Below, one piece after another: positions 14,558-26,966 of a DNA stretch of 45,446 nt (the first letter of the stretch is position 1; every line of letters starts with the position of its first letter). Below the pieces are notes generated by a model. That model was not told the DNA's origin. It made no database searches and was given only the letters and a program-made list of their open reading frames with translations. The stretch comes from Pseudomonadota bacterium. Lineage in GTDB: Bacteria; Pseudomonadota; Alphaproteobacteria; Acetobacterales; Acetobacteraceae. A program made the position numbers and the translations under genes. The stretch spans positions 1 through 45,446 of the forward strand of contig JAJZFA010000004.1 in assembly GCA_021805565.1 (NCBI GenBank), given 5' to 3'.

Positions 14558-15970
14558 ATGCGAGCAATCAACGCGATACGGATGGGCGGGGTTGATGTCC
14601 TGCCACTTGTGGAAGGCGGCAAGGGCGTTGCTATTTCCAATGGATTGTCGGCTGGCCACTGGGCGCTGGCCGGTGGCGTCGGCACGTTCAGTGCCGTCAA
14701 TGCCGATAGTTTCGATTCGGATGGCCGGATAATTCCGCAGGTTTATCGCGGCCGGACCCGGCGCGAGCGGCATGAGGAACTGGTTAATTACGCCATTCAG
14801 GGCGCGCTGACTCAAGCCCGCCGGGCGTGGGACGTAACCGGCGGCAAAGGCCGTATTCATGCCAATATTCTGTGGGAAATGGGCGGCGCGGAACGCATTA
14901 TCACCGAGGTGCTGGAGCAGGCGAAGGGCCTGATTCACGGCATCACCTGCGGCGCCGGGATGCCGTACCGCCTGTCGGACATCGCGGCCCGGTTCAATGT
15001 TCATTATTACCCGATCATCTCCTCGGCCAGGGCCTTCAGCGCGCTGTGGAAACGGGCCTATTCCAAAACCGCCGAATTGTTGGGTGGCGTGGTCTATGAA
15101 GACCCGTGGCTGGCAGGCGGGCATAACGGACTGTCGAATGGCGAAGACCCATTGCGCCCGGAAGACCCGTTTCCTCGGGTTATGGCGCTACGCAAGGTCA
15201 TGCGCGACTTCGGTCTGGCGGAAACCCCGATCGTCATGGCCGGCGGAGTCTGGTGCCTGGAAGACTGGGAAAGCTGGATTGAAAACCCCGATCTCGGCCC
15301 GGTTGCGTTCCAGTTCGGTACCCGTCCGCTGTTGACGCAGGAAAGCCCGATCGGCGACGCGTGGAAGCAGCGGCTGCTGACCTTGAAGGAAGGCGATGTC
15401 TTCCTCAACCGGTTCAGCCCGACCGGATTTTACTCCAGCGCCGTCAGCAACGGCTTTCTGGACGAATTGCGTGGCCGCAACGATCGTCAGGTGGCGTTCA
15501 CCATGGAAACCATTGGCGAACATGTCGCGGAACATGGCGTCGGACCGCGCAAGCGCATCGTCTATCTGACCCATGCCGACCGTGAACGCGCCCTGACATG
15601 GGAACGGCAAGGCTTTACCGATGCGCTGCGCACCCCCGACTCGACGCTGATCTTCGTTACCCCGGACAAGGCCCAGGAAATTCTGGAAGATCAGACCGCC
15701 TGTATGGGGTGCCTGAGTTCCTGCCGCTTTTCCAACTGGGCGCAGCACGATCCCGACTTCACGAACGGCAAAAAGGCCGATCCGCGCAGTTTCTGTATCC
15801 AGAAAACCTTGCAGGACATTGCCCACACCAGCGACGAGCCGGACGCGGTGGACCGAAACCTGATGTTCAGCGGCCACAATGCCTACCGGTTCGGCAAGGA
15901 TCCGTTTTACTCGAACGGTTTCATCCCGACCGTCAGGCAGTTGATGGAACGGCTGCTGACCGGGCGGTAA
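14558..15970 (+). CDS. Nitronate monooxygenase/enoyl-reductase-like TIM barrel with C-terminal cysteine cluster
   Basis: 470 residues related to the nitronate monooxygenase (2-nitropropane dioxygenase, PfaD-like) FMN TIM-barrel family. LPLVEGGKGVAISNGLSAG and HWALAGGVGTFSAVNA near the N-terminus, GLIHGITCGAGMPYRL in the barrel, and TPIVMAGGVWCLEDW for the phosphate loop support this. It is longer than ordinary NMOs. Unlike them it has Cys382, Cys385, Cys389 and Cys413 (C-x2-C-x3-C-x23-C) in a C-terminal extension, a spacing expected for an iron-sulfur or zinc site. It is probably an FMN oxidoreductase. Substrate is unknown. It stands alone between pnp and nrdJ, after a leader with hairpins. 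Confidence 0.78.
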   Translation: MRAINAIRMGGVDVLPLVEGGKGVAISNGLSAGHWALAGGVGTFSAVNADSFDSDGRIIPQVYRGRTRRERHEELVNYAIQGALTQARRAWDVTGGKGRIHANILWEMGGAERIITEVLEQAKGLIHGITCGAGMPYRLSDIAARFNVHYYPIISSARAFSALWKRAYSKTAELLGGVVYEDPWLAGGHNGLSNGEDPLRPEDPFPRVMALRKVMRDFGLAETPIVMAGGVWCLEDWESWIENPDLGPVAFQFGTRPLLTQESPIGDAWKQRLLTLKEGDVFLNRFSPTGFYSSAVSNGFLDELRGRNDRQVAFTMETIGEHVAEHGVGPRKRIVYLTHADRERALTWERQGFTDALRTPDSTLIFVTPDKAQEILEDQTACMGCLSSCRFSNWAQHDPDFTNGKKADPRSFCIQKTLQDIAHTSDEPDAVDRNLMFSGHNAYRFGKDPFYSNGFIPTVRQLMERLLTGR

Positions 15971-16178
15971 GGGCGGTTTGCTGCCTTCCGATCAGTGTGC
16001 CTGAGGCCTCCTCGCCGCCGCAATCCGGAGCGGTACGTGCTGGCTATGGCCTAAAGCGGCGCGCGAAAACCAACGCGCCTGACGCCGGCCGGGTTTGCGA
16101 TGGCCGCATCGGCGAGCGACCGCGCCGCCACAGGCCGCGACCGCCACTGCCCGCAGGTATTACGCGCTATGCCAGAAT

Positions 16179-16226
16179 TTGGCGTATATTGTGTTTCAAT
16201 TCTCTCGTGCCCACTATATATAGGAT
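16179..16226 (+). promoter_or_regulatory. Tandem NrdR-like boxes upstream of nrdJ
   Basis: Box 1, 16179-16194, ends GTATATTGTGT; box 2, 16211-16226, reads CCACTATATATAGGAT. Both resemble the NrdR consensus ACACTATATATTGTGT, box 1 in its right half and box 2 in most positions. The gap between them is 16 bp, so centres are 32 bp apart, about three helical turns, the spacing known for paired NrdR boxes. They lie 25-72 bp before the nrdJ start. NrdR repression of ribonucleotide reductase when dATP is high is therefore likely. Confidence 0.65.
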
Positions 16227-16250
16227 GCCTACGCAATTGGGGTCCCAGAT

Positions 16251-18635
16251 ATGGACGGTTTCTCGGCAGGTCTCGTGCAGTGCGATCCGGTTCCGGGCGC
16301 GCATTTCGGCGATATCGGCCTGACCCCGCGGCACCTCGATCCGGGCATGGGGGTCGCCGTTGCCCGTCGTACGATTTTCCGTCCTGAGGACGCCGAATGT
16401 TTTGGCCGGGTGGCCGATCGCGTGTCCGCCGGCAACATGGCGCTGCTTGGGCAGCACCCAACCGATGCCGAATTGCAGGAACAGGGCCGGCTGCGCAATG
16501 CCATCGCCACCGGAGCGCTGCTGACATCCGGCCGCCATCTGCAACATGGCGACCCCAGTCAGCCCGAACGCAACATGGAGGTTTTCACCAACTGCGCCAC
16601 CGCCATCGCGTCGTTTGCGAAGTTTTATCTATTGCTGAACGGGTCCGGAGTCGGGCGCAGCTATGATGACGCCCTGATGGCGATCGACTGGGCGCATGCG
16701 CCCACGCTTTTGCTGTATCTGTCGCCAGACCATGCCGATTATCCGCACGGGTCCACGGCGCGGGCGCACCTGGGTGTGGACCTGGGGTTGCTGCCATGGG
16801 GCACCGCGACGGATGACAGCGGCGTGGTCGCGGCGTTTCTGGCCACGGAGTTGGTTTCCGACCCGCGCACCGTGCCGGCCGGTACCACGTGCCATCGAGT
16901 CGCCGATAGCCGCGAGGGCTGGGCCAAGGCCGTCGAACTGCTGGAATCGATGACGTTCCGGCGTGAAAGCGGCGCGACCTTGCTGCTGGACATGTCCGCG
17001 ATCCGCCCCGCTGGATCGCCGATTCGCGGCATGCAGGGGCGTCCGGCGTCCGGACCGATTTCGCTGCTGCGGGCCTTCCTCAATATCCGCCGGCATGTCA
17101 TCGGCGCGGCCGCAACGCTGGCGGCCTGGGAACAGGCGTTGCTGATCGACCACCATTTTTCCGTCGAGGTGCAGGTCGGCGGCGCTCGCCGGGCCGCCCG
17201 GATGGCAACCAAGTCCTGGCGCGACCCCGGTATTGTCCGTTTCATTCAGTGCAAGGCGGAGGGCGGGCTGTGGACCGCCAACCACTCGGTCATGGTCGAT
17301 GCGGAATTCTGGCGGCACGTCCGCTCCGGCGGCAGCGACCCGTTGACCGTTCATGCGCAAGCGGTGTTCGCCGAAGCCACGCGGTGCGCCTGGATCAACG
17401 GCGAGCCCGGTTTTATCAACGGCGATGCGTTGGAAGATCATCGCACCGGATCCGCCTGGGACAAACCGGTGTACGACGACGGGCGGGACTTCCGCAGCGC
17501 GCGTTATCAGGTGGACGAAGCCGCTGGATTGCTGGCGGATGTCTCGCGGCGGGCGGCCGGATCCAGGTTTCCGGTCACCACCAACCCGTGCGGCGAAATC
17601 GCGCTGCATGTCACCGGCGGGTATTGCGTGATCGCCGACTTCGCGCCGTTGCTGGCTTGTCCGGTTCCACTGGATGCGATGACGCCGGGTCAGGCTCCGC
17701 GCGACGTGGCGGCGCTTTGGGATGCGCGCGTGGAGGATTCCGTCCGGCTGGGCGTGCGCTTCCTGATGCGTGCCAATGGGATGGACGCTTTGTATGCCCA
17801 GGAAGTCGCCCGTACCAATCGCATGGGGATCGGGCCGACCGGGCTGCATGAATGGGCCTGGCTGCGGTTCGGTCTCGATTTCAATCAATTGCTGGATGAG
17901 ACCGTGTCGGCGCCGTTCTGGGCGATGCTCGTTCGGCTGTCGGACGCGGCCAAGCAGGAAAGCACCGCGTACGCAAACGCGCTCGGCCGGGCGATACCTG
18001 CGACGGTGACCACGGTGAAACCGGCCGGCACGACCAGCAAGCTGTTTGGCCTGACCGAGGGCGCGCATCTGCCCGCTCGGCGGCAGTATCTGCGCTGGGT
18101 GCAGTTCAAGGGCGTCCGCGATGACAACAGCGGGGAGTGGGACGCTGGATCCGATCCGCTGCTGGCCGATTACGCCCGGCGGGGCTATCCGATGCGGACC
18201 CTGAAGACATTTCCGGGGATGACGGTGGTGGGCTTTCCGACCGTTCCACTGTTGATGCGTCTCGGCATTGGCGCGCGCAGCGTGACGGCGGGCGAGGCGT
18301 CGCCCGGCGATCAATATCGCTGGTTGCGCCTGCTGGAGAAGCACTGGATCGGCGCCGAACAGGGCAATCAGGTGAGCTATACCCTAAAGATTTTCACCGA
18401 CCGGCATGATCTGGATTCGTTCAGGGCGATCGTGCGAGACCAGCAACCCACCGTGCGCTGCTGCGCCGTTCTGCCGAGCCGCCCGGATCATGAACTGGGC
18501 TATGAATATTTGCCGGAGGAGGAGATTTCGGAAGCCGATTTCGAAGCGATCGTGCTGCGTATCGAGGCCGGCACGGTGCGGGAGGCAGTGGACTGGGTTC
18601 ATTTGGACTGTGCGAGCGGGGTTTGCCCGATTTAG
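16251..18635 (+). CDS. nrdJ: Adenosylcobalamin-dependent (class II) ribonucleotide reductase
   Basis: 794 residues. It reduces ribonucleotides to deoxyribonucleotides by a B12-derived thiyl radical and works with or without oxygen. The active-site set resembles the monomeric Lactobacillus RTPR. Cys115 is in EVFTNCATA, Cys447 in TTNPCGEIAL and Cys459 in GGYCVIADF. A C-terminal pair, Cys787 and Cys792 (CASGVCPI), has the usual C-x4-C spacing for re-reduction by thioredoxin. NGSGVGRSYDD and VKPAGTTSKLFGLTEGAH are further conserved segments. The start at 16251 has only a weak ribosome site. Tandem NrdR-like boxes lie just upstream. Cys447 and Cys459 are 12 apart rather than the 11 I recall for the Lactobacillus enzyme. 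Confidence 0.92.
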   Translation: MDGFSAGLVQCDPVPGAHFGDIGLTPRHLDPGMGVAVARRTIFRPEDAECFGRVADRVSAGNMALLGQHPTDAELQEQGRLRNAIATGALLTSGRHLQHGDPSQPERNMEVFTNCATAIASFAKFYLLLNGSGVGRSYDDALMAIDWAHAPTLLLYLSPDHADYPHGSTARAHLGVDLGLLPWGTATDDSGVVAAFLATELVSDPRTVPAGTTCHRVADSREGWAKAVELLESMTFRRESGATLLLDMSAIRPAGSPIRGMQGRPASGPISLLRAFLNIRRHVIGAAATLAAWEQALLIDHHFSVEVQVGGARRAARMATKSWRDPGIVRFIQCKAEGGLWTANHSVMVDAEFWRHVRSGGSDPLTVHAQAVFAEATRCAWINGEPGFINGDALEDHRTGSAWDKPVYDDGRDFRSARYQVDEAAGLLADVSRRAAGSRFPVTTNPCGEIALHVTGGYCVIADFAPLLACPVPLDAMTPGQAPRDVAALWDARVEDSVRLGVRFLMRANGMDALYAQEVARTNRMGIGPTGLHEWAWLRFGLDFNQLLDETVSAPFWAMLVRLSDAAKQESTAYANALGRAIPATVTTVKPAGTTSKLFGLTEGAHLPARRQYLRWVQFKGVRDDNSGEWDAGSDPLLADYARRGYPMRTLKTFPGMTVVGFPTVPLLMRLGIGARSVTAGEASPGDQYRWLRLLEKHWIGAEQGNQVSYTLKIFTDRHDLDSFRAIVRDQQPTVRCCAVLPSRPDHELGYEYLPEEEISEADFEAIVLRIEAGTVREAVDWVHLDCASGVCPI

Positions 18636-18640
18636 GGCCG

Positions 18641-18750
18641 GTATCGACGATAACCGCGTCAGCACGCGGATGGAGCTGCCCGCTCAAACAAAGGCTTGGA
18701 ACATGCCCGGCGCCGTAATCCGACGCGATAATTTCTGGGCATGGCTAACG
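18641..18750 (+). repeat. REP-like element, single copy after nrdJ
   Basis: Related to the 63-bp array at 10072-10323 and its tail. It shares GCGTCAGCACG, AGCTGCCCGCTCAAAC and, further on, CGATAAT...GGGC. Its head forms CCGCG-TCAGCA-CGCGG where the array forms GTGC-GTCA-GCAC, so the stem is kept while its bases differ. It starts six bases after the nrdJ stop codon. Confidence 0.7.
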
Positions 18751-18789
18751 GATTGCTCAACGATAATCGCGACAAGCGGCAGCAGCGGG

Positions 18790-18858
18790 CGATCCCTAAA
18801 CTTATGTTTTACAAGGAAACTTTGCTGGCGTGCTGACGCGCTTATTCGCCAGCGTTGC
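18790..18858 (-). repeat. REP-like element, inverted copy before hicB stop
   Basis: On the minus strand it reads GCTGGCGAATAAGCGCGTCA, then GCACGCCAGCAAAG and on to GTTTAGGG, matching the array unit and tail. The outer stem is GCTGGC/GCCAGC instead of ATCGGC/GCCGAT, a compensated change. It ends directly at the hicB stop codon. With the copy at 18641 it forms an inverted pair in a 220-bp gap. Confidence 0.7.
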
Positions 18859-19284
18859 CTAGGCGGCCTGGCGAACTTCGCTCGCGATTTGCTTTCCTAG
18901 GTGCCACAGGGCGTCTTCCAGCGTGCCGATTTTTGTTTGATGGTCCAGGTCGAGCATCCGCCGGACTTCGCCCTCTTGCTTTCCCAGTTTATGAGCGAGT
19001 GTCACTTTGTTCAAACCGGCCTCCCGCATCGCCAAATAGAGCGCGAGTTTGGCCGATTCGAGCATCGGAACGACAACAAAAAACTGTCCCTTGGCAGAAG
19101 GCGCCGGTAAACCCCGCTTCATTTTTGCCAACCCGCCCAGCGCGGCAAGAAGCGCGTCGGACGCCAGAGCATGGGCATCCGCCTGCGTATCGCCCTCGGT
19201 CAGCGCCTCGGGAACGTCAGGAAAACGCACCTGCCACGCGCCATCGGCGCTTTGGTGGACGGTATATGGATAAACGAACCGCAT
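18859..19284 (-). CDS. hicB: HicB-family antitoxin
   Basis: 141 residues. Residues 1-65 form the partial RNase H-like HicB fold (FVYPYTVHQSADGAWQVRFP, then DVPEALTEGDTQADA). Residues of about 85-130 form a DNA-binding helix-turn-helix (REAGLNKVTLAHKLGKQEGE). HicB binds and neutralises HicA and represses the operon. AGGAG lies seven bases ahead of the start. It follows hicA after 29 bases, the toxin-first order normal for hicAB. The last codons abut an inverted REP-like element. Confidence 0.9.
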   Translation of the reverse strand: MRFVYPYTVHQSADGAWQVRFPDVPEALTEGDTQADAHALASDALLAALGGLAKMKRGLPAPSAKGQFFVVVPMLESAKLALYLAMREAGLNKVTLAHKLGKQEGEVRRMLDLDHQTKIGTLEDALWHLGKQIASEVRQAA

Positions 19285-19313
19285 ATCGTACTCCTACCCC
19301 CCCGCCCGTGCGG

Positions 19314-19532
19314 TCAGGAAAGGCCTTCTTTTGTCAGGCCAAGCTGCTTCGGGATGTCGTGCAAAAGCCCTGGCCCTATCTCTTTTTTTCCCCGGTCTTT
19401 AACGGTCGTAAGCTTGTCGCCAAAGAGCAAGTGCCCGTGGCTTCCCTTGCCGTGCCGGGGTTCATACTCAAATTCCAGGTCTCGCTGTTTGGCGAGGCGC
19501 TTTAGCTTTTTCGCCAGTTCAGCGCCGTTCAC
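19314..19532 (-). CDS. hicA: HicA-family mRNA interferase toxin
   Basis: 72 residues with the double-stranded-RNA-binding-like HicA fold. VNGAELAKKLKRLAKQRDLE opens the protein, GKGSHGHLLFGD contains the catalytic His, and KEIGPGLLHDIPKQLGL closes it. HicA cleaves mRNA when freed from HicB. The GTG at 19532 was chosen because homologues begin M-N-G-A/S-E-L at this point. An upstream extension has no family similarity and no ribosome site is evident for either. It lies just downstream of tRNA-Thr on the same strand, a common place for acquired genes. Confidence 0.85.
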   Translation of the reverse strand: MNGAELAKKLKRLAKQRDLEFEYEPRHGKGSHGHLLFGDKLTTVKDRGKKEIGPGLLHDIPKQLGLTKEGLS

Positions 19533-19668
19533 GACCGACGAATCGCGCAGCGATGTGCGATATACAAGGCGCGTCACATAATTATGTGCCGTATCGTGCT
19601 GACATGCACCCGGCTGCGTGCCCGAGAATGGCGCATCCGGCGAATGAATAACAATTTCAGATATTTGC

Positions 19669-19743
<75 letters not shown>

Positions 19744-19872
19744 GACCGGACAATTCCGCCTATACAGTTCTCCCTCGCGGCAAGCAACCCGCGATAGTGC
19801 CATCGTGGCTTTTGCAGGCCGCACCGGCATGGCACTGTGGCCGTCTGTTCTGGCAACACCGAAGGATTCGCC

Positions 19873-20797
19873 ATGCCGATACCGGTCATCCTCGATTGCG
19901 ACCCAGGCACGGACGACGCCATCGCGATCTTGCTGGCGCTCGCATCGCCGGAACTGAACGTCCTCGCCATCTCCGTTGCCGGCGGCAACGTGGGGCTTGA
20001 CCAGACACTGCCCAACGCACTGGCCCTGACCGCCCTGGCCGAATCCAAGGTGCCAGTCCATGCCGGGGCCGACCGGCCTTTGCTGGGGGCCTTCGTCAGC
20101 GAAACCCGCATCCACGGCAACAATGGGATCGGCGGCGTTGTTCTGCCGCCGGGCGGACCGGCCGAACCGGACCTGGCGGCGGACGCGATCCGACGGATCC
20201 TCCGTAACGCCGCCGAACCGGTGACCCTGATCGGGATCGGACCCGCCACCAACCTCGCGCTTGCCCTCGGCACCGAACCCGCGCTGACCGCCAAGGTCGC
20301 ACAAATCGTGCTGATGAGCGGCGCCTGGGCCGAAGGCAATGTAACGCCCGCCGCCGAATTCAACGCCTGGAGCGACCCGGAGGCGCTGGCGATCCTGCTC
20401 GCCTGCGGCCGCCCTGTGGTATTCGCGACATTGGAACTGACGGCGCAGGCACTGACCACCCCGGCCCGGATCGCGGCATGGCGAGCCGGCGGAACCGGCC
20501 GGTGCCTTCAGGCGGCCTGCGATATCCAGGCGACGGTGCCGCTGTCGAACCGGTTTGCGATACCCGGTGCGCCGCTGCACGATCCCTGCGCCGTCGCGTG
20601 GTTGATCCAGCCGGACCTGTTCACAACGCGCGCCTGTTCGGTGCGGGTGGACCTCGGTCCCGGTCCGGGTCGCGGCCGCACCCTGATCGATCGGGTGGGG
20701 CCGCACCGGCGATCCCGCCAACGCCATCGTTCTGGAAACCCTAGACCCGGACGGCTTCTTCGATTTGCTTGGCCGACGGATATCCCGCTTGCCCTGA
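19873..20797 (+). pseudogene. Inosine-uridine preferring nucleoside hydrolase, frameshifted near the C-terminus
   Basis: Nucleoside hydrolases split nucleosides into base and ribose. The N-terminus VILDCDPGTDDAIAILLALA contains the Ca2+-binding Asp cluster. GIGPATNLALAL, AEFNAWSDPEA and PLHDPCAVAWL are the later motifs. After RTLIDRVG at about 20700 the reading frame leaves the family sequence. Dropping one base in the GGGGCC run at 20697-20702 restores RTGDPANAIVLETLDPDGFF and a stop at 20795-20797, giving the usual length of about 308. In the unshifted frame the protein would run on to 21141 through the next gene. It may be a real mutation or a sequencing error in a G run. Confidence 0.8.
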
Positions 20798-20923
20798 TCG
20801 CGACCGCGATGGCCGCGACTCCACGCAACGCATTGCAAATTTGGCGGGGCAAAGCGATCCTGTCGCGAATACGGGATGGCCTGATGGCGAATCTCGGTCC
20901 ACCGATCGTCCTGGGAGTCAATC

Positions 20924-21709
20924 ATGTCAACCGAACTGGAACCGGCGCTTGCCGATTTGGAAGCGCGGATGGACGAAGCCGAACGCCTGGCCAAAAGCGC
21001 ACTTGTCCGCCTGAAGAAAGCCCGGCGAATGACGGCGATAGGCGATATCAATGGCATTGTCGCCCAGCTCGAACAGGCCCCGGACGCAGCCGACCGAACC
21101 GCCGCGGCGTTTCGCGCGTTGGGCGGATCGTTCGCCTATGATGCCGGGGACGCTTTTGCCGACGGCACGTACATCGCCGAACTGATGGCGGAAGCCAAAC
21201 GCCAGGGCGTGACGATCGTCGATCGCAACGGCCGGCTGAGCGCATTTCCGCTTCTGCTGAAGCTTGACGCCAAGGCTCAGGCCGTAAAGGTCGGACGCAA
21301 GACCGTGCGGGCAATTCGCCCCTCGGCCCTGGTCAAATCGTTGAAGGCCGCGCAACAGGCCGGTGGCTTCAACGCTGCCGGTTTCCTGGAACACCTGTGG
21401 CGGGCGTACCTGCATCTGGCGCCGTCCGGCTGGACGGCACGAGCTGGTTCGGACGGACCGGCTGTATCGTTGGCGCAAATCCATACGCTGCTGACATTGC
21501 TTCCGGCCGCCGCCGCGGAGTACCCGCGGGAGGCTTTCGTGTGCGATCTGTTGCGCCTCAATCGCGCGCCCGATACAAAAACAAAGGGCGGCCTGGGTTT
21601 TACGCTACCGGCGTCCACCGGCAGCAAGGGCCAGGACCGGCTGACCGTTTATGACGAATCCGGCGGCGAGCATATTTTTGTCGGCATCCGGTTCCTGGCC
21701 GCCAACTGA
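20924..21709 (+). CDS. Unknown protein, first gene of a three-gene BrxD-like ATPase cassette
   Basis: 261 residues with no family I recognise. Residues 1-40 are a charged helix likely to coil (LEPALADLEARMDEAERLAK, then SALVRLKKARR). The middle (about 75-140) alternates strands and helices (ADGTYIAELMAEAKRQGV, IVDRNGRLSAFPLLLKL). The C-terminal half has FLEHLWRAYLHLAP and ends in a beta-rich stretch (GQDRLTVYDESGGEHIFVGI). There is no signal peptide, membrane helix or known nuclease motif. GGGAG precedes the ATG. The next gene follows after 16 bases, and that gene overlaps the third, so it is probably a subunit or DNA-binding partner of the ATPases. A promoter could lie in the 126-bp gap after the nucleoside hydrolase. 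Confidence 0.75.
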   Translation: MSTELEPALADLEARMDEAERLAKSALVRLKKARRMTAIGDINGIVAQLEQAPDAADRTAAAFRALGGSFAYDAGDAFADGTYIAELMAEAKRQGVTIVDRNGRLSAFPLLLKLDAKAQAVKVGRKTVRAIRPSALVKSLKAAQQAGGFNAAGFLEHLWRAYLHLAPSGWTARAGSDGPAVSLAQIHTLLTLLPAAAAEYPREAFVCDLLRLNRAPDTKTKGGLGFTLPASTGSKGQDRLTVYDESGGEHIFVGIRFLAAN

Positions 21710-21725
21710 ACAGGAGGCATACCGC

Positions 21726-22667
21726 ATGGCGATCCCGCTCGGTTCCTGGCTGGAGACAATGCGCGAGGAGTACCTGGCGTCCTTCATCCCAGCGGGCGGC
21801 AGCGCCGTCCGCTTCGTGGTCGTGGCCGATCCGGACCAAATCCAGTACGCATCGATCCGGCTCCGCGATCAGGGCAGGCAATGCGGGCTGACGGCCATCT
21901 GTTTAGATACCGCCACAACCAAACTGCACCAGCTGCAGAACCTGTTTTTTGCCATCGCCAAAGCCGTGGACTGGGATGCTCTGACGCGCACCCAACTGGA
22001 ACGCATCGTGGCGAACAGCGGCTATCGCTGGCCCGAACCCGGCCAGCGTATGTCGCTTGCCATGCTCGCGGACGCGAACGATGTCGCGCCGGGCCTGCTG
22101 CACACGCAGATCAACCAGGAAATCACCCGCATTGTTTGGCAGGATGCCGGCCTGGCGCAGGATTTCCGGAATGCCATGATCGCGTTGCTCGCCGCGCGCC
22201 TGGCGGGCGATCGCGAGGCCGTGCGCAACACGGTGATGGACTGGCTGCAAGGCGCGCCTGGCCGCCTCGCTGGCATAAGGGAAGCCGGAATTGGCGCGAA
22301 AATTGGCCGCAACAATGCCCGCGCGATGCTGAAGTCGCTGTGCCGCTGGGTCCGGCTGTGCGGGGGAAACGGCATTCTGCTGGTCATCGACATCGGCCGC
22401 CTGCTGCGGGAGCGGCGAGAGGTCCAGGATGGCCATGTCTATTCGGCCGCCGCCGTGATGGATTGCTATGAGGTATTGCGACAGACGATCGACGACGCCA
22501 GCCACTTGGAAGGCTTCTTCATGACCGTCATCGCCGACCCGCCGCTATTGGCCGACGATGGACGCCGGTCCCTGAACCAATACACCGCGCTGAAGATGCG
22601 GGTGTGGGACGACGTGCGGCCGCGGCAGGGCGACAACATGCTGGCGCCCCTGGTGCAACTGCAATGA
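21726..22667 (+). CDS. Degenerate BrxD-like P-loop protein (predicted pseudo-ATPase)
   Basis: 313 residues that align by eye with the BREX-type ATP-binding family (BrxD, DUF2791). Where that family has its Walker A loop this protein reads FVVVADPDQIQYASIRL (residues 30-46), with no GKS/GKT. Its Walker B segment is GILLVIDIGRLLRE, with Asp222 kept but the catalytic Glu replaced by Ile. The family helix pattern before and after is retained (NARAMLKSLCRWVRLCGGNG; VLRQTIDDASHLEGFFMTVI). It is probably a structural subunit that pairs with the intact ATPase next door. AGGAGG lies nine bases ahead of the ATG. Its stop overlaps the next start as ATGA. Confidence 0.72.
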   Translation: MAIPLGSWLETMREEYLASFIPAGGSAVRFVVVADPDQIQYASIRLRDQGRQCGLTAICLDTATTKLHQLQNLFFAIAKAVDWDALTRTQLERIVANSGYRWPEPGQRMSLAMLADANDVAPGLLHTQINQEITRIVWQDAGLAQDFRNAMIALLAARLAGDREAVRNTVMDWLQGAPGRLAGIREAGIGAKIGRNNARAMLKSLCRWVRLCGGNGILLVIDIGRLLRERREVQDGHVYSAAAVMDCYEVLRQTIDDASHLEGFFMTVIADPPLLADDGRRSLNQYTALKMRVWDDVRPRQGDNMLAPLVQLQ

Positions 22668-23893
22668 CCTGGCGCGACACGGTTCCCGCGCGGTTCGCCA
22701 TCGAGGCACTGCGCGCCGGCGTGCCGAACAGCCAGGCAATCCTGCGGCTGGGTTGTCCGGACGACGCGATCGAGGCGCGCTTCGAGGCCGCCCTCGATAA
22801 CGCCGCCGATACACCAGAACCAGGGTTTTCCATCGCCGGCGGTTTCGGCACTGGCAAATCGCATTTACTCGGCTATCTGCGCGAGGCAGCGCTGCTGCGG
22901 CAATTCGTGGTCAGCACGGTTACGGTCAGCAAGGAAACGCCGCTGTCCATTCCGGGTGTGACCTATGCCGCGGCGATGCGAAACGCCACCGTGGCCGGTG
23001 TCAACGACGACGCGGTCACGCGCGCGCTGAGCAACGCCGAACGCCTGGAGGGGGCAACGCAGAGCCTGGCATTATGGGCAGGCACGCCAGAAGCGGGGAT
23101 GTCGCAGTTGTTCGGTGCCGTGATCCATTTGATCGGGCGGGGCATGGACACGGAGTTGCGCCAGGCGGTGGAAGCGTTTCTGACCGATGGCAGGCCGCCC
23201 CTGCCGCCGTTGCGCCGGGCGCTGAAAGACAAATCCATCCGGTCGTTGTTCGATATCGAACCGGTCGCCCCCGCGGAACTCGTTCGCCAGCGCATGCGCT
23301 TCATGCCGCAGCTGTTTTGTGCCGCCGGATTCGCGGGATGGGTCGTGCTGCTGGACGAGGTGGAACTGATTGGCCGCTATGGGCCGTTGCAGCGCGCTTT
23401 GGCCTACGCGGAACTATCGCAATGGCTGGGTCTGGACGCGGCGGATCGTATTCCGGGCATTTTCGCCGTATGCGCGATTACCGACGACTACGCCGATGCG
23501 GTGATCGCCGCGAAACAGGACGCCCAGAAGCTGACCGACCGCTTGCGGCTGCGTAATCTGCCGCGTCAGGCAGACCAGGCCGGGCTGGCCATGCGTGCCA
23601 TACAGTCCGCAATGAAACTTCGTGCCCCGGACGACTCCGATTTGGCGCGGCACGAACAGGCTGTGCGGAATTGCTATACCGAAGCGTACGAATGGCAGGC
23701 GCCGCAAGCGGAGATGGGCGTCCGCCAGGCAAACCGGACGATGCGGCATCACATCCGTGGCTGGATCACGCAATGGGACATGCTGCGGGTCGCCGGCATC
23801 GATGCGGGCGTGGTCGAAACGGTGGCCATTACCGACTACAGCGAAGATGAACGGCTGACGGAAACGCCCGAAGGTTTCAGCGATCCGGGCTAG
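22664..23893 (+). CDS. BrxD-like ATPase (BREX ATP-binding/DUF2791 family)
   Basis: 409 residues. It has an intact Walker A, AGGFGTGKSHLLGYL (Lys65), and Walker B, GWVVLLDEVELIGRYG (Asp231, Glu232). It also has FAVCAITDDYAD as a probable sensor 1 and a C-terminal helical region with ANRTMRHHIRGWITQWD. The opening (FAIEALRAGVPNSQAILRLG) is the usual start of the family. Members are found in BREX and related phage-defence loci and are thought to couple ATP hydrolysis to DNA remodelling or restriction. Its start lies in the stop of the degenerate paralogue (ATGA), so expression is coupled. No helicase, methylase or PglZ gene is present in view. Confidence 0.8.
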   Translation: MTWRDTVPARFAIEALRAGVPNSQAILRLGCPDDAIEARFEAALDNAADTPEPGFSIAGGFGTGKSHLLGYLREAALLRQFVVSTVTVSKETPLSIPGVTYAAAMRNATVAGVNDDAVTRALSNAERLEGATQSLALWAGTPEAGMSQLFGAVIHLIGRGMDTELRQAVEAFLTDGRPPLPPLRRALKDKSIRSLFDIEPVAPAELVRQRMRFMPQLFCAAGFAGWVVLLDEVELIGRYGPLQRALAYAELSQWLGLDAADRIPGIFAVCAITDDYADAVIAAKQDAQKLTDRLRLRNLPRQADQAGLAMRAIQSAMKLRAPDDSDLARHEQAVRNCYTEAYEWQAPQAEMGVRQANRTMRHHIRGWITQWDMLRVAGIDAGVVETVAITDYSEDERLTETPEGFSDPG

Positions 23894-23905
23894 CCTCGCG
23901 CGCTG

Positions 23906-25078
23906 TTACCAGGCCGCGTCGAGCAGTGCCCGCACCGCGGCCGGGCCGTCGATCTTGCGCGGATTGGTATGCACCCAGCGGTCATGCATCGATGCGACCG
24001 CGATCCGATCCAGTTGCTCCGGTTTCACACCCGCGTCGCGCAGCGTGCCGGGCAGACCCAGGCCGGCGATCAGCGCCGCCACGGCATCGGCGGCCCCGCC
24101 AGCGCCCGGCCGCCCGAACGCGGCACTAATCCATTCCTGGCGATCCGCGTTGACGGCAAGGTTGAACCGCAACACATGCGGCAGCATCACGCAGGACGTG
24201 TAACCATGCGGCACATTCGCGGTTCCGCCCAGCACGTGCCCAATGCCGTGGCTGGCGCCCATCGGCACGCCGCTATGCGCGCCCAGGATAGCCATCCATG
24301 ATCCCAACTGGCAGTTCAGCCTTGCATCCAGATCGGCCGGATCGGCCTTCACCGCCGGTAATCCTGCGGTCAGCAGGCGCAGCGCGTGCAACGATGTGCC
24401 ATCCGAATAGGGCGTTGGTGCCACCGAACAAATCGTTTCCACCGCATGATCCACCGCCCGGATTCCGGTCGAAAGAAACAGCCACTCCGGCGTGTGGACC
24501 GTCACCTCGGGGTCCAGGATCACCGTCTGGGGCATCATCAGGGGGTGGCCGAAGCTTTCCTTCATATGCCGTTCGGTGTCGGTGCAGCCGGCGAATGGGG
24601 TGAATTCCCCAGCCGACAATGTCGTCGGAATATCGACCGAACGGATCGCGGGCGGGTTGACCGCCGGTCGCTCGGTTTTGCCGTCTGGCGCGACCCACGC
24701 CCGGAAGGCATCCAGCTGGCTGGGATGGGTCACGTCGTTGCCCAGGCACAGCCCGACCATCTTGGCCGCGTCGGTAACCGATCCGCCTCCGACGGTTAGA
24801 ATCAGGTCGGCCTTGGCTGCCCGCGCTTCATTCGCGGCCGCCACCACGTCGGCGCGCGGGGTATGGGCGCCGATCTTCGCGCACAGGCCGGCCATGCGAT
24901 TGCCCAGCACCCGGCGTACGGTGCCTGTCACCCCGGTTTCCCGGTGGAGCGTGCCGCTGGCCATCACATAGACCGCGCGGGCGTCCAGCCGAGCGATTTC
25001 CTCGGCCAGCGCCTCGGCGAATGGCAGACCGTATATGACCCGCTCCATCGGCGGGTAGCGGTGGATACCTTGGATCAT
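23906..25078 (-). CDS. Iron-containing alcohol dehydrogenase/maleylacetate reductase-like
   Basis: 390 residues of the group III (iron-type) alcohol dehydrogenase superfamily. The NAD(P)-binding part has TVGGGSVTDAAKMVGL; the metal-binding helical part has GIRAVDHAVETIC and MGASHGIGHVLGG followed by VPHGYTSCVMLPHV. The sequence IPTTLSAGEFTPFAGCTD lies between them. The closest style is maleylacetate reductase, which reduces maleylacetate to 3-oxoadipate in aromatic ring breakdown, but simple alcohol oxidation is possible. GGGAGA lies eight bases ahead of the ATG. It stands alone and is convergent with the BrxD-like cassette, only 12 bases apart. Confidence 0.88.
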   Translation of the reverse strand: MIQGIHRYPPMERVIYGLPFAEALAEEIARLDARAVYVMASGTLHRETGVTGTVRRVLGNRMAGLCAKIGAHTPRADVVAAANEARAAKADLILTVGGGSVTDAAKMVGLCLGNDVTHPSQLDAFRAWVAPDGKTERPAVNPPAIRSVDIPTTLSAGEFTPFAGCTDTERHMKESFGHPLMMPQTVILDPEVTVHTPEWLFLSTGIRAVDHAVETICSVAPTPYSDGTSLHALRLLTAGLPAVKADPADLDARLNCQLGSWMAILGAHSGVPMGASHGIGHVLGGTANVPHGYTSCVMLPHVLRFNLAVNADRQEWISAAFGRPGAGGAADAVAALIAGLGLPGTLRDAGVKPEQLDRIAVASMHDRWVHTNPRKIDGPAAVRALLDAAW

Positions 25079-25169
25079 GTTTGTCTCCCAGCCCGATTTT
25101 CTTTGCCAAAACGCCCGAATCGGGAGCAGACTACACCCGTCGTAGCAACAACTGAAAGGAGGTGATCCT

Positions 25170-25235
25170 GTGTCTCATTGTTCGGTGGCAACCCTCGCCA
25201 TGACCTGGATCGCCGGCGCGAAAACGCCGGCTTAG
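25170..25235 (+). CDS. 21-residue small open frame with an exceptionally strong ribosome site
   Basis: GTG at 25170 opens a 21-codon frame, MSHCSVATLAMTWIAGAKTPA, ending in TAG. The 14 bases at 25155-25168, AAAGGAGGTGATCC, are a full complement to the 3' end of 16S rRNA, with GGAGG seven bases before the start. The coding end forms a hairpin (CCGGCG...CGCCGG) and a terminator follows at 25274-25308. It could be a small protein, a leader peptide with no downstream gene, or a regulatory RNA that binds 30S subunits. It is divergent from the alcohol dehydrogenase. I cannot assign a family. Confidence 0.55.
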   Translation: MSHCSVATLAMTWIAGAKTPA

Positions 25236-25273
25236 ATTACTCCGGTCCGGCAACGGACAGTCACAACAATGCG

Positions 25274-25308
25274 AAGGCCCTGGGCTTATGTCCGGGGCCT
25301 TTGGCTTT
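25274..25308 (+). terminator. Terminator hairpin shared by the small gene and the convergent membrane-protein gene
   Basis: AAGGCCCTGGGC (25274-25285) pairs with GTCCGGGGCCTT (25290-25301), allowing G-U pairs, around the loop TTAT. It is followed by TGGCTTT on the plus strand. The loop also contains the minus-strand stop codon (TAA at 25288-25286) of the membrane-protein gene. It therefore closes two convergent transcripts in one site. Confidence 0.7.
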
Positions 25309-25870
25309 CGTGGCCCATCGCGCGCTTTTCCTCCACGCCGCGGTTGATACCCGCCAAAATCCACCCGAAAAACACCATCAGCGCGCCCGAACTGACCGCG
25401 TTCAGGGTAAACAGCGATGCGTAGGCCGATACCGAAAACCGGATGGGTGGGATATCCAGCCGCCCGCGCGTCAGCCACCATGCGGCCAGCGGCAAGGCGG
25501 TCATGATCAGCATGACGAACCGTTCCCGCCACGTGAAAAGGATGGCCGCCAGCATTCCGCACGGCAGATACAGGAGCTGAATACCGGCCGCCTCGCCGAG
25601 CATCATTGAGCAAAATGCGACGTTGGCGACCGAGAATACGATCATCGCCACCCGGCCCAGCAGGCTGGAGCGCCGGGCGATGGCGGGGACGGCAAAGAAG
25701 AGCAGGCCTGAGAACGCATCGGGAAGCCCGATCCAGGCGTCCGAACCGGCGATCCACCATAAGTACAACGGATAATAGGGCTGATTCCAGGCGAGAACCA
25801 TCGCGATGGTGTTATTCGCCGCGACGTGGGGATCGTCGCTCGCGGTGTAGGCGCGCAGCCATCGCAGCAT
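25286..25870 (-). CDS. Multi-pass membrane protein of unknown function
   Basis: 194 residues with about five hydrophobic helices: PLYLWWIAG near the start, SGLLFFAVPAIA, VAMIVFSVANVAFCSMMLG, LLYLPCGMLAAILF and SSGALMVFFGWILAG. It resembles the N-terminal membrane sensor halves that precede cyclase or kinase domains, but no catalytic domain follows. The start at 25870 (MLRWLRAYTASDD) was chosen on protein character; the frame continues upstream into the methyltransferase gene without meaning. It begins 64 bases after the CFA-like gene on the same strand, so it may be the last gene of the rpoE operon. Confidence 0.68.
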   Translation of the reverse strand: MLRWLRAYTASDDPHVAANNTIAMVLAWNQPYYPLYLWWIAGSDAWIGLPDAFSGLLFFAVPAIARRSSLLGRVAMIVFSVANVAFCSMMLGEAAGIQLLYLPCGMLAAILFTWRERFVMLIMTALPLAAWWLTRGRLDIPPIRFSVSAYASLFTLNAVSSGALMVFFGWILAGINRGVEEKRAMGHESQRPRT

Positions 25871-25934
25871 CGTGATACCTGTTCCTGGGGGGCATGGCCC
25901 GGATCGTGCCGGAGCAGTTATGCCGATACTGCCC

Positions 25935-26966
25935 TCAGCGCGCCAGCGGACGCAGCCGATAGTGGCTGACGCCCCATTCCGAACCGCCGACGTGGCCGAA
26001 CAGGCCGGCCGTCGCCAGGAAGAACAGGCGCCAGCGGCGTTTCCACAGGGCTGCCTCGGCGCCATAGACATCGCGCAATACCCGCGCCACCGCGTCTTCA
26101 TTGCGATCGAAATTCGCCAGCCAGTCGCGCGCGGTGCGGGCGTAGTGTTCGCCGCCCCACCGCCATTCGTCCTCCACCTCGAACACCTCCGCCACATGCC
26201 GGATCAGCCGATGGCTTGGCATGATCCCGCCGGTGAAGAAATGCTGGGCGATCCAGTCTTCCTTGTCCGCGACATCGAACAGGTATGGCGCGGAATGGTG
26301 GCTGAACACATGCATGAACAACCGTCCATCCGGCCGCAGCCAGCCGTACACACGGCGGAGAAGCGACTGCCAGTTGGTCATGTGTTCGAACATCTCCACC
26401 GAAACCACCCGGTCGAAGGTCGCGTCCGGGGAGAAATCGTTCATGTCGGCGGTAACCACAAGCAGGTTGTTCAAGCCGAGATCGGCGGCCCGCCCCTCGA
26501 TATAGATGCGCTGGCCGTGCGAATTGGATACGGCGGTGATGCGCGATGCTGGATAGCGTTCGGCCATCCACAGGCTGAGCGAACCCCATCCGCATCCCAG
26601 TTCCAGAATATCCTGGCCGTCGGTAAGGCCGGCATGTGCGGCGGTTTCCGCCAGGGCGTGCTCCTCGGCAATCGGCAGCGTGTCCTGGGGCGTGCGGTAC
26701 AGGCAGCATGAATATTTCCGCCGTGGCCCGAGAGCCAGGCCGAAGAAGTCCGAATTGACCTCGTAATGCTGTTCGTTTGCCGCATCGGGGCGGACGGCGA
26801 TCGGCTGCTGAGCCATCAGGCGGGCAAAATCGGCCTCCGACGGGCTGCCGTTGCGCGCCAGTTTGCGGCGGGTGCGGTCCACCAGGAACGATATCCCGGC
26901 GGATGTGACCGCATCCGGAAATGGGACACGCTCGATTACATTCGTGGCGACGGTGACGAAGCTCAT
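25935..26966 (-). CDS. SAM-dependent methyltransferase, CFA synthase/coclaurine N-methyltransferase-like
   Basis: 343 residues. The SAM loop is ILELGCGWGSLSLWMAERYP (residues 120-139), followed by VSVEMFEHMTNW and WIAQHFFTGGIMPS. The segment KYSCCLYRTPQDTLPIAEE is typical of the branch of the CFA-synthase superfamily that includes plant coclaurine N-methyltransferase, and the protein is shorter than true CFA synthases. It probably methylates phospholipid fatty acyl chains or furan rings. Its ATG overlaps the stop of the DUF1295 gene by four bases. As part of the ECF11 lipid operon it could be a UfaM or FufM equivalent in furan fatty acid synthesis; the exact role is inferred. Confidence 0.85.
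   Translation of the reverse strand: MSFVTVATNVIERVPFPDAVTSAGISFLVDRTRRKLARNGSPSEADFARLMAQQPIAVRPDAANEQHYEVNSDFFGLALGPRRKYSCCLYRTPQDTLPIAEEHALAETAAHAGLTDGQDILELGCGWGSLSLWMAERYPASRITAVSNSHGQRIYIEGRAADLGLNNLLVVTADMNDFSPDATFDRVVSVEMFEHMTNWQSLLRRVYGWLRPDGRLFMHVFSHHSAPYLFDVADKEDWIAQHFFTGGIMPSHRLIRHVAEVFEVEDEWRWGGEHYARTARDWLANFDRNEDAVARVLRDVYGAEAALWKRRWRLFFLATAGLFGHVGGSEWGVSHYRLRPLAR

Follow-up and report, generated by a model that had tools for sequence, protein, structure and literature searches.

What is the role of an intact ATPase that is encoded, in a tightly coupled set of three genes, beside a paralogue lacking the motifs of an ATP site? The question is raised by positions 20924 to 23893 of a stretch of 45,446 nucleotides, the whole of which is referred to as the window, from contig JAJZFA010000004.1 of a member of the Acetobacteraceae (assembly GCA_021805565.1). 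The best explanation, to which we give about an even chance, is that the trio forms the core of a four-gene module that has spread horizontally, resembles bacteriophage exclusion (BREX) systems, and would load or license an SNF2 motor on DNA, most likely in defence. The order of the module is a coiled-coil protein (gene 1), a pseudo-ATPase (gene 2), an ATPase (gene 3), and an SNF2 translocase (gene 4). The window holds the following features:

20924-21709, + strand: gene 1, a 261-amino-acid protein with an N-terminal coiled coil and without a family match
21726-22667, + strand: gene 2, a 313-amino-acid BrxD-like pseudo-ATPase (PF10923)
21825-21848, + strand: degenerate ADPDQIQY in the P-loop place of gene 2 (from sequence and alignment to BrxD)
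22386-22403, + strand: IDIGRL in the Walker B place of gene 2 (from sequence and alignments, including to BrxD)
22664-23893, + strand: gene 3, a 409-amino-acid BrxD-like ATPase (PF10923, E 1.1e-17)
22838-22861, + strand: Walker A of gene 3, GGFGTGKS, residues 59-66 (from sequence and homologue conservation)
23348-23365, + strand: Walker B of gene 3, LLDEVE, residues 229-234 (from sequence and homologue conservation)
23894-23905, no strand: 12-base spacer between gene 3 and a dehydrogenase gene, the position of the SNF2 helicase gene in relatives

The ATPase pair and its partner

The three genes had been described in an earlier note as coupled, and the coordinates agree: 16 bases separate genes 1 and 2, and genes 2 and 3 overlap via ATGA. 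The assignment of genes 2 and 3 to the BrxC/BrxD kind in the same note is also borne out. Against the Pfam family PF10923 (BrxC_BrxD), gene 2 scores 48 bits (E 1.1e-12) and gene 3 scores 64.5 bits, both above the gathering cut-off of 22.2 bits, and both proteins match the BrxD models of PADLOC and NCBIfam as well.

The Walker motifs, which the note had placed solely in gene 3, were counted in 121 proteins per gene (the best homologues among the matches listed, plus the query). Walker A is kept by 120 of the 121 gene 3 proteins and by none of the 121 gene 2 proteins, so the active/inactive pattern is not a chance feature of a single genome. All 121 gene 3 proteins have DE behind a hydrophobic run. 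The same loose pattern also matches 19 of the 121 gene 2 proteins, and none of the 15 matches displayed with their context (the other four were not) lies at the Walker B place: in 14 proteins the match is in a later strand, as ADE around residue 271, and one of the 14 has another at the N-terminal strand; the remaining protein has its sole match at the N-terminal strand. The aspartate of IDIGRL (D222) is invariant in the alignment of gene 2, and no glutamate follows it.

A structure check set beforehand asked whether the gene 2 protein is unrelated to BrxD, which turned out not to be so. Its model is predicted to adopt an AAA+ fold of the kind seen in the origin recognition complex (ORC) and Cdc6, with ORC2 as the best structural match and BrxC (9zll, 9zdx) among the top ones. 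At the level of sequence, then, gene 3 is shown to keep a live ATP site and gene 2 to have a dead one, within one common BrxC/BrxD family. We infer that the two proteins form a hetero-oligomer. At another locus (L087:1548-2492, genome G969), an in-frame TAG interrupts gene 2, while genes 1 and 3 are open.

The gene 1 protein, called unlike any known family in the earlier note, is unmatched in Pfam, PADLOC, and NCBIfam at E values up to 1, and TerB is among the families that it fails to match there. Its AlphaFold2 model (mean pLDDT 88.9, pTM 0.72) predicts an N-terminal helical hairpin or coiled coil at residues 5-66, strands at 99-128, helices at 133-213, and C-terminal strands at 225-258. Foldseek searches of the PDB and of a viral library with this model returned nothing with E < 0.001.

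A second check set beforehand asked whether a genome survey would find the three genes apart, and it does not: the trio is confirmed as a real unit that is kept together. In a sample of 150 genomes of the Acetobacteraceae, the window's own included, the same 16 hold strong matches to gene 2 (at least 337 bits) and to gene 3, and 15 hold one to gene 1. The complete trio stands in order on a single contig in 13 of these 16 genomes; of the other three, G020 has its trio spread over two contigs, and those of G108 and G133 are cut at contig ends. Save for these contig-end cases, strong matches to the three genes always come together in the 150 genomes. The trio is present in 3 of the 9 congeners listed. 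Beyond the family, there are 12 strong matches in the order sample (299 genomes), one besides the window in the class sample (G511, 235 bits; 385 genomes), and none besides the window in the phylum sample (299 genomes). The family of G511, here the second family, has the trio in 4 of 14 genomes. Those weak matches elsewhere that were fetched (L044-L053) are, by eye, BREX loci or loci with BrxD plus a helicase.

The helicase gene, selection, and transfer

A comparison of neighbours brought out one recurring family directly downstream of gene 3, an SNF2 protein of about 440-480 amino acids. The copy in L006, the one scanned for its Pfam content, matches PF00176 at 155.9 bits (cut-off 24.9) and has helicase domains only. 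In the second family, gene 4 is about 650 amino acids long with an N-terminal extension, which in L043:4009-5970 amounts to about 210 extra residues. The earlier note had listed a helicase among the missing parts, which is not right for the module, since its lack is a property of the copy in the window. Twenty-seven loci, window included, have enough sequence to judge (G108, G969, and a second copy in G802 are cut by contig ends and were left out). Gene 4 is intact in 12 of them (G055, G010, G084, G148, G020, G057, G092, L010, G511, G802, G803, G800) and broken or present as traces in 4 more, being interrupted in L005 and a remnant in G058, G134, and L008. It is absent from the remaining 11: the window, L002, L003, G076, G133, G129, G014, G094, G835, G956, and G996. 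The sequence of L002 runs for just 744 bases after gene 3, but opens with another gene.

No trace of gene 4 was found in the 12-base spacer of the window (23894-23905) and no copy elsewhere in the window's genome, which encodes other SNF2-like proteins. On a 20-row tree of the trio, presence of gene 4 changes 6 times, and at least 5 of these changes are forced by well-supported branches. Loss has happened, because remnants exist; at loci without remnants, loss is the probable direction of change, and it is the most likely reason that the window's copy lacks the gene. No replacement gene common to the helicase-less loci was seen among those listed. In G058, whose own gene 4 has decayed, an SNF2 protein encoded away from the cassette (G058:C59:583-1842, a frame of 476 amino acids, 333.7 bits to the gene 4 profile) is a possible stand-in.

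The trio is still under purifying selection without gene 4. Among the closest helicase-less copies (the window, L002, and L003), the ratio of nonsynonymous to synonymous change (dN/dS) is 0.14-0.27 over the three genes, at a synonymous divergence (dS) of 0.5-1.1, and between G058 and G134, in which the helicase gene has decayed, it is 0.19-0.29.

Conflicts among the gene trees indicate that the trio has been passed on horizontally, also from one species to another of the same genus. In the trio tree, G000, L002, and L003 form a fully supported group with G084 and G148. In the tree of polynucleotide phosphorylase (Pnp), in which 8 of the 14 inner branches are poorly resolved, a grouping of G000, its congener G099, G084, and G148 is rejected (approximately unbiased test, p 0.02). 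In two congeners, G835 and G956, the version of the trio is a distant one, and a tree that unites the three members of the genus in one clade is rejected (p 2e-75). Ancient duplication followed by differential loss could produce such a pattern, too; no genome with both versions was seen in the family and order samples. Distances nevertheless correlate overall (Spearman 0.75, 91 pairs from 14 genomes), and there is therefore inheritance within clades, too.

Known systems and the genomic surroundings

By the features tested, the module is neither BREX nor Shango, as the earlier note had held. In type 2 BREX, the ORC/Cdc6-type ATPase BrxD adjoins the helicase BrxHI, and the ATPase has been proposed to load or activate it (parts of PMC12839542). 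Genes 2 and 3 share the family of BrxD, but reach only 44.5 and 58.3 bits against the BrxD equivalog NF033438, far under its cut-off of 350 bits. The module also differs in its helicase, a short SNF2 protein rather than a Ski2/Lhr-like BrxHI, in its inactive ATPase partner, and in its new gene 1. A PADLOC scan covered 127 of the 144 called neighbours (up to four genes per side at 22 loci, with 8 neighbours in the window). In agreement with the earlier note, which had seen no PglX or PglZ, no BREX family, including BrxX/PglX, PglZ, and a BrxC-size ATPase, was found among these called genes at E 1e-15. BREX has another pair, in which active ORC/Cdc6-type BrxC goes with BrxB, an inactive STAND NTPase (parts of PMC12839542). 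The likeness lies in BrxC being among the top predicted structural matches of gene 2, and the difference in that gene 2 is itself an inactive member of the BrxC/BrxD family and that the module has no PglZ.

Shango, as outlined in parts of PMC10250203, unites a TerB-like protein, an ATPase, and a DEAD/DEAH helicase in one small operon. The module is likewise a small operon with an ATPase adjoining a helicase, though the SngB profile of PADLOC matches genes 2 and 3 no more than weakly (15.3 and 19.6 bits). It differs in that gene 1 has no TerB match, that there are two ATPase-family genes, one of them inactive, and that the DEAD/DEAH-box SngC has as its counterpart an SNF2 protein (PF00176) in relatives and no helicase at the window locus. 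The gene 4 proteins of relatives match the SNF2 models of Zorya ZorD, Dpd DpdE, and DISARM DrmD, but what is held in common is a generic SNF2 motor alone, and none of the other families of these systems appeared in the neighbour scan. The likeness to the eukaryotic and archaeal ORC is the predicted AAA+ fold. In ORC, active and inactive ATPase subunits combine into complexes that load a helicase; the module differs in that no origin-recognition winged helix was identified in it and in that its partner is an SNF2 motor, not MCM. No description of the gene set was found among the papers listed in searches of an open-access library without subscription papers and preprints. The module belongs with ORC-type ATPase plus helicase modules, and what is new is the dedicated inactive paralogue and gene 1.

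Ten families were matched in the neighbour scan, five of them being IetA/IetS at one locus. There (L031:4037-7469), homologues of IetA and IetS, a known defence pair, lie immediately upstream of a four-gene cassette. The C3a214 match is a GlgB-like protein in L029, one mad3 match is an SMC protein, and the RTasPolA match is the product of polA. The REase_II match is a protein of 518 amino acids encoded in the same neighbourhood as SMC at L020, and this protein may be a general repair enzyme; mad2 and a second mad3 complete the matches. Three neighbours have a phage-integrase domain.

An apparent conjugative or mobilisable element surrounds the cassette of L082 (L082:93-18514), with a TrwC relaxase, a tyrosine recombinase, a weak NikA-like match, a Band_7 protein, and a group II intron protein. 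L043 has the same flanks, and L084, by eye, the same integrase. Genome G802 holds a related but cut copy (L084) and another beside chromosomal genes (L081); the chromosomal genes next to L081 and L083 are those of coenzyme A and of dUTPase. Neither beside these two nor among the Acetobacteraceae genes listed was a relaxase or mobilisation gene noticed.

In the window, a convergent gene for an iron-containing alcohol dehydrogenase (PF00465/PF25137) begins 12 bases past gene 3. Directly upstream of the trio is a nucleoside hydrolase gene (19879-20794) with a frameshift near 20696-20700 relative to the intact copy of L003, and the order of nucleosidase and trio is common to the window, L002, and L003. 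Further upstream, hicB (PF15919), with hicA by eye only, occupies 18859-19682 and adjoins tRNA-Thr(CGT). Of the hicAB, tRNA, and repeats reported by the earlier note as neighbours, it is the repeats that are not confirmed: at the thresholds applied, positions 15500-26500 contain a direct and an inverted pair of 18 bases, one of each, and are free of tandem arrays. No hicAB adjoining the trio was noticed among the relatives' genes listed. Nor is a tRNA conserved as a neighbour: one lies within 1 kilobase of the trio and outside the module at 1 of the 30 other loci scanned (tRNA-Val at L030:10267-10341 in G014, about 450 bases upstream of gene 1). The remaining tRNA matches are at least 3 kilobases off, apart from two single ones inside module genes that look spurious.

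Possible roles and mechanism

How could such a module work? Genes 2 and 3 could assemble together into a ring or clamp around DNA, with gene 2 as a structural half-site that completes the subunit interface without ATP hydrolysis, as inactive ORC subunits do. Gene 1 may act as a scaffold or adaptor or in DNA recognition, and gene 3, by ATP hydrolysis, would load or license the SNF2 motor on DNA that is foreign or stalled. More speculatively still, at loci that lack gene 4 the two ATPase-family proteins might serve as a DNA-bound block alone or borrow an SNF2 protein encoded elsewhere. This mechanism is drawn from what is known of ORC/Cdc6 and from the BrxD-BrxHI proposal (parts of PMC12839542). 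A new four-gene defence system in its full form, with an ORC/Cdc6-like ATPase and its dead paralogue as a hetero-oligomeric SNF2 loader and a coiled-coil adaptor of new fold, is a tentative proposal, possible rather than probable.

That the module defends against phages or other mobile DNA is close to a coin toss. Defence is favoured because of the patchy distribution, the conflicting trees, the fast change, the conjugation context, the kinship with BREX ATPases, and IetAS upstream of one cassette. Several results weigh against it: no nuclease was found in the module, phage records gave no match to gene 3, plasmid records none to genes 2 or 3, and viral contigs none to gene 2. Most neighbours, moreover, are housekeeping-like (by eye and from the 25 of 143 Pfam families displayed), and many loci are set among such genes, several of them for replication or chromosome upkeep (SMC, a PriA domain by Pfam, polA by its PADLOC polymerase match, and xerC-like and murA by eye). 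These surroundings would suit chromosome maintenance, in which the ORC-like ATPase pair and the SNF2 motor would serve replication restart, DNA repair, or the clearing of stalled proteins in relatives of acetic acid bacteria, and so would the purifying selection, the AAA+/ORC-like fold, and the failure to find a killing domain. However, the trio is restricted to 16 of 150 genomes in the family and 3 of 9 listed congeners, its trees conflict with the host tree, conjugation genes adjoin part of the second family, and gene 4 is repeatedly absent. The module is therefore unlike a core repair gene, and maintenance is unlikely while keeping a real chance.

A small chance goes to a function for the mobile element itself, that is, upkeep or transfer of a conjugative or integrative element by a motor loaded on its own DNA, with copies stranded on chromosomes in the window's family. 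The relaxase, recombinase, and NikA-like match near the L082 cassette and the related flanks of L043 and L084 fit this, but no such genes were noticed among those listed for the Acetobacteraceae or beside L081 and L083, and the plasmid records are without matches to genes 2 or 3. It is quite improbable that the window's genome carries a decaying remnant, a trio no longer working once the helicase was gone: gene 4 is missing from the window and its closest relatives L002 and L003, the nucleosidase gene just upstream is frameshifted, and L087 has its gene 2 interrupted by a stop, yet the three genes are intact and constrained in exactly those helicase-less relatives, and gene 4 is missing across several clades. 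Remodelling of transcription or the nucleoid by a RapA-like SNF2 motor, guided by the ORC-like ATPase, accords with the SNF2 class of gene 4. With no transcription domain found in the module proteins and nothing else pointing there, its chance is very slight.

If the trio is indeed the core of a BREX-like loader module, its value lies in being minimal and separate, and nature supplies both the pair of active and inactive ATPases and copies that have or lack the motor. The role of BrxD is described as uncharacterised in parts of PMC12839542. The idea that such an ATPase loads a helicase would become testable on three or four short proteins, with neither methylase nor PglZ in play. Were the reading as a full four-gene defence system true, a loader part that stays under selection in many genomes once the motor is lost would act on DNA in its own right.
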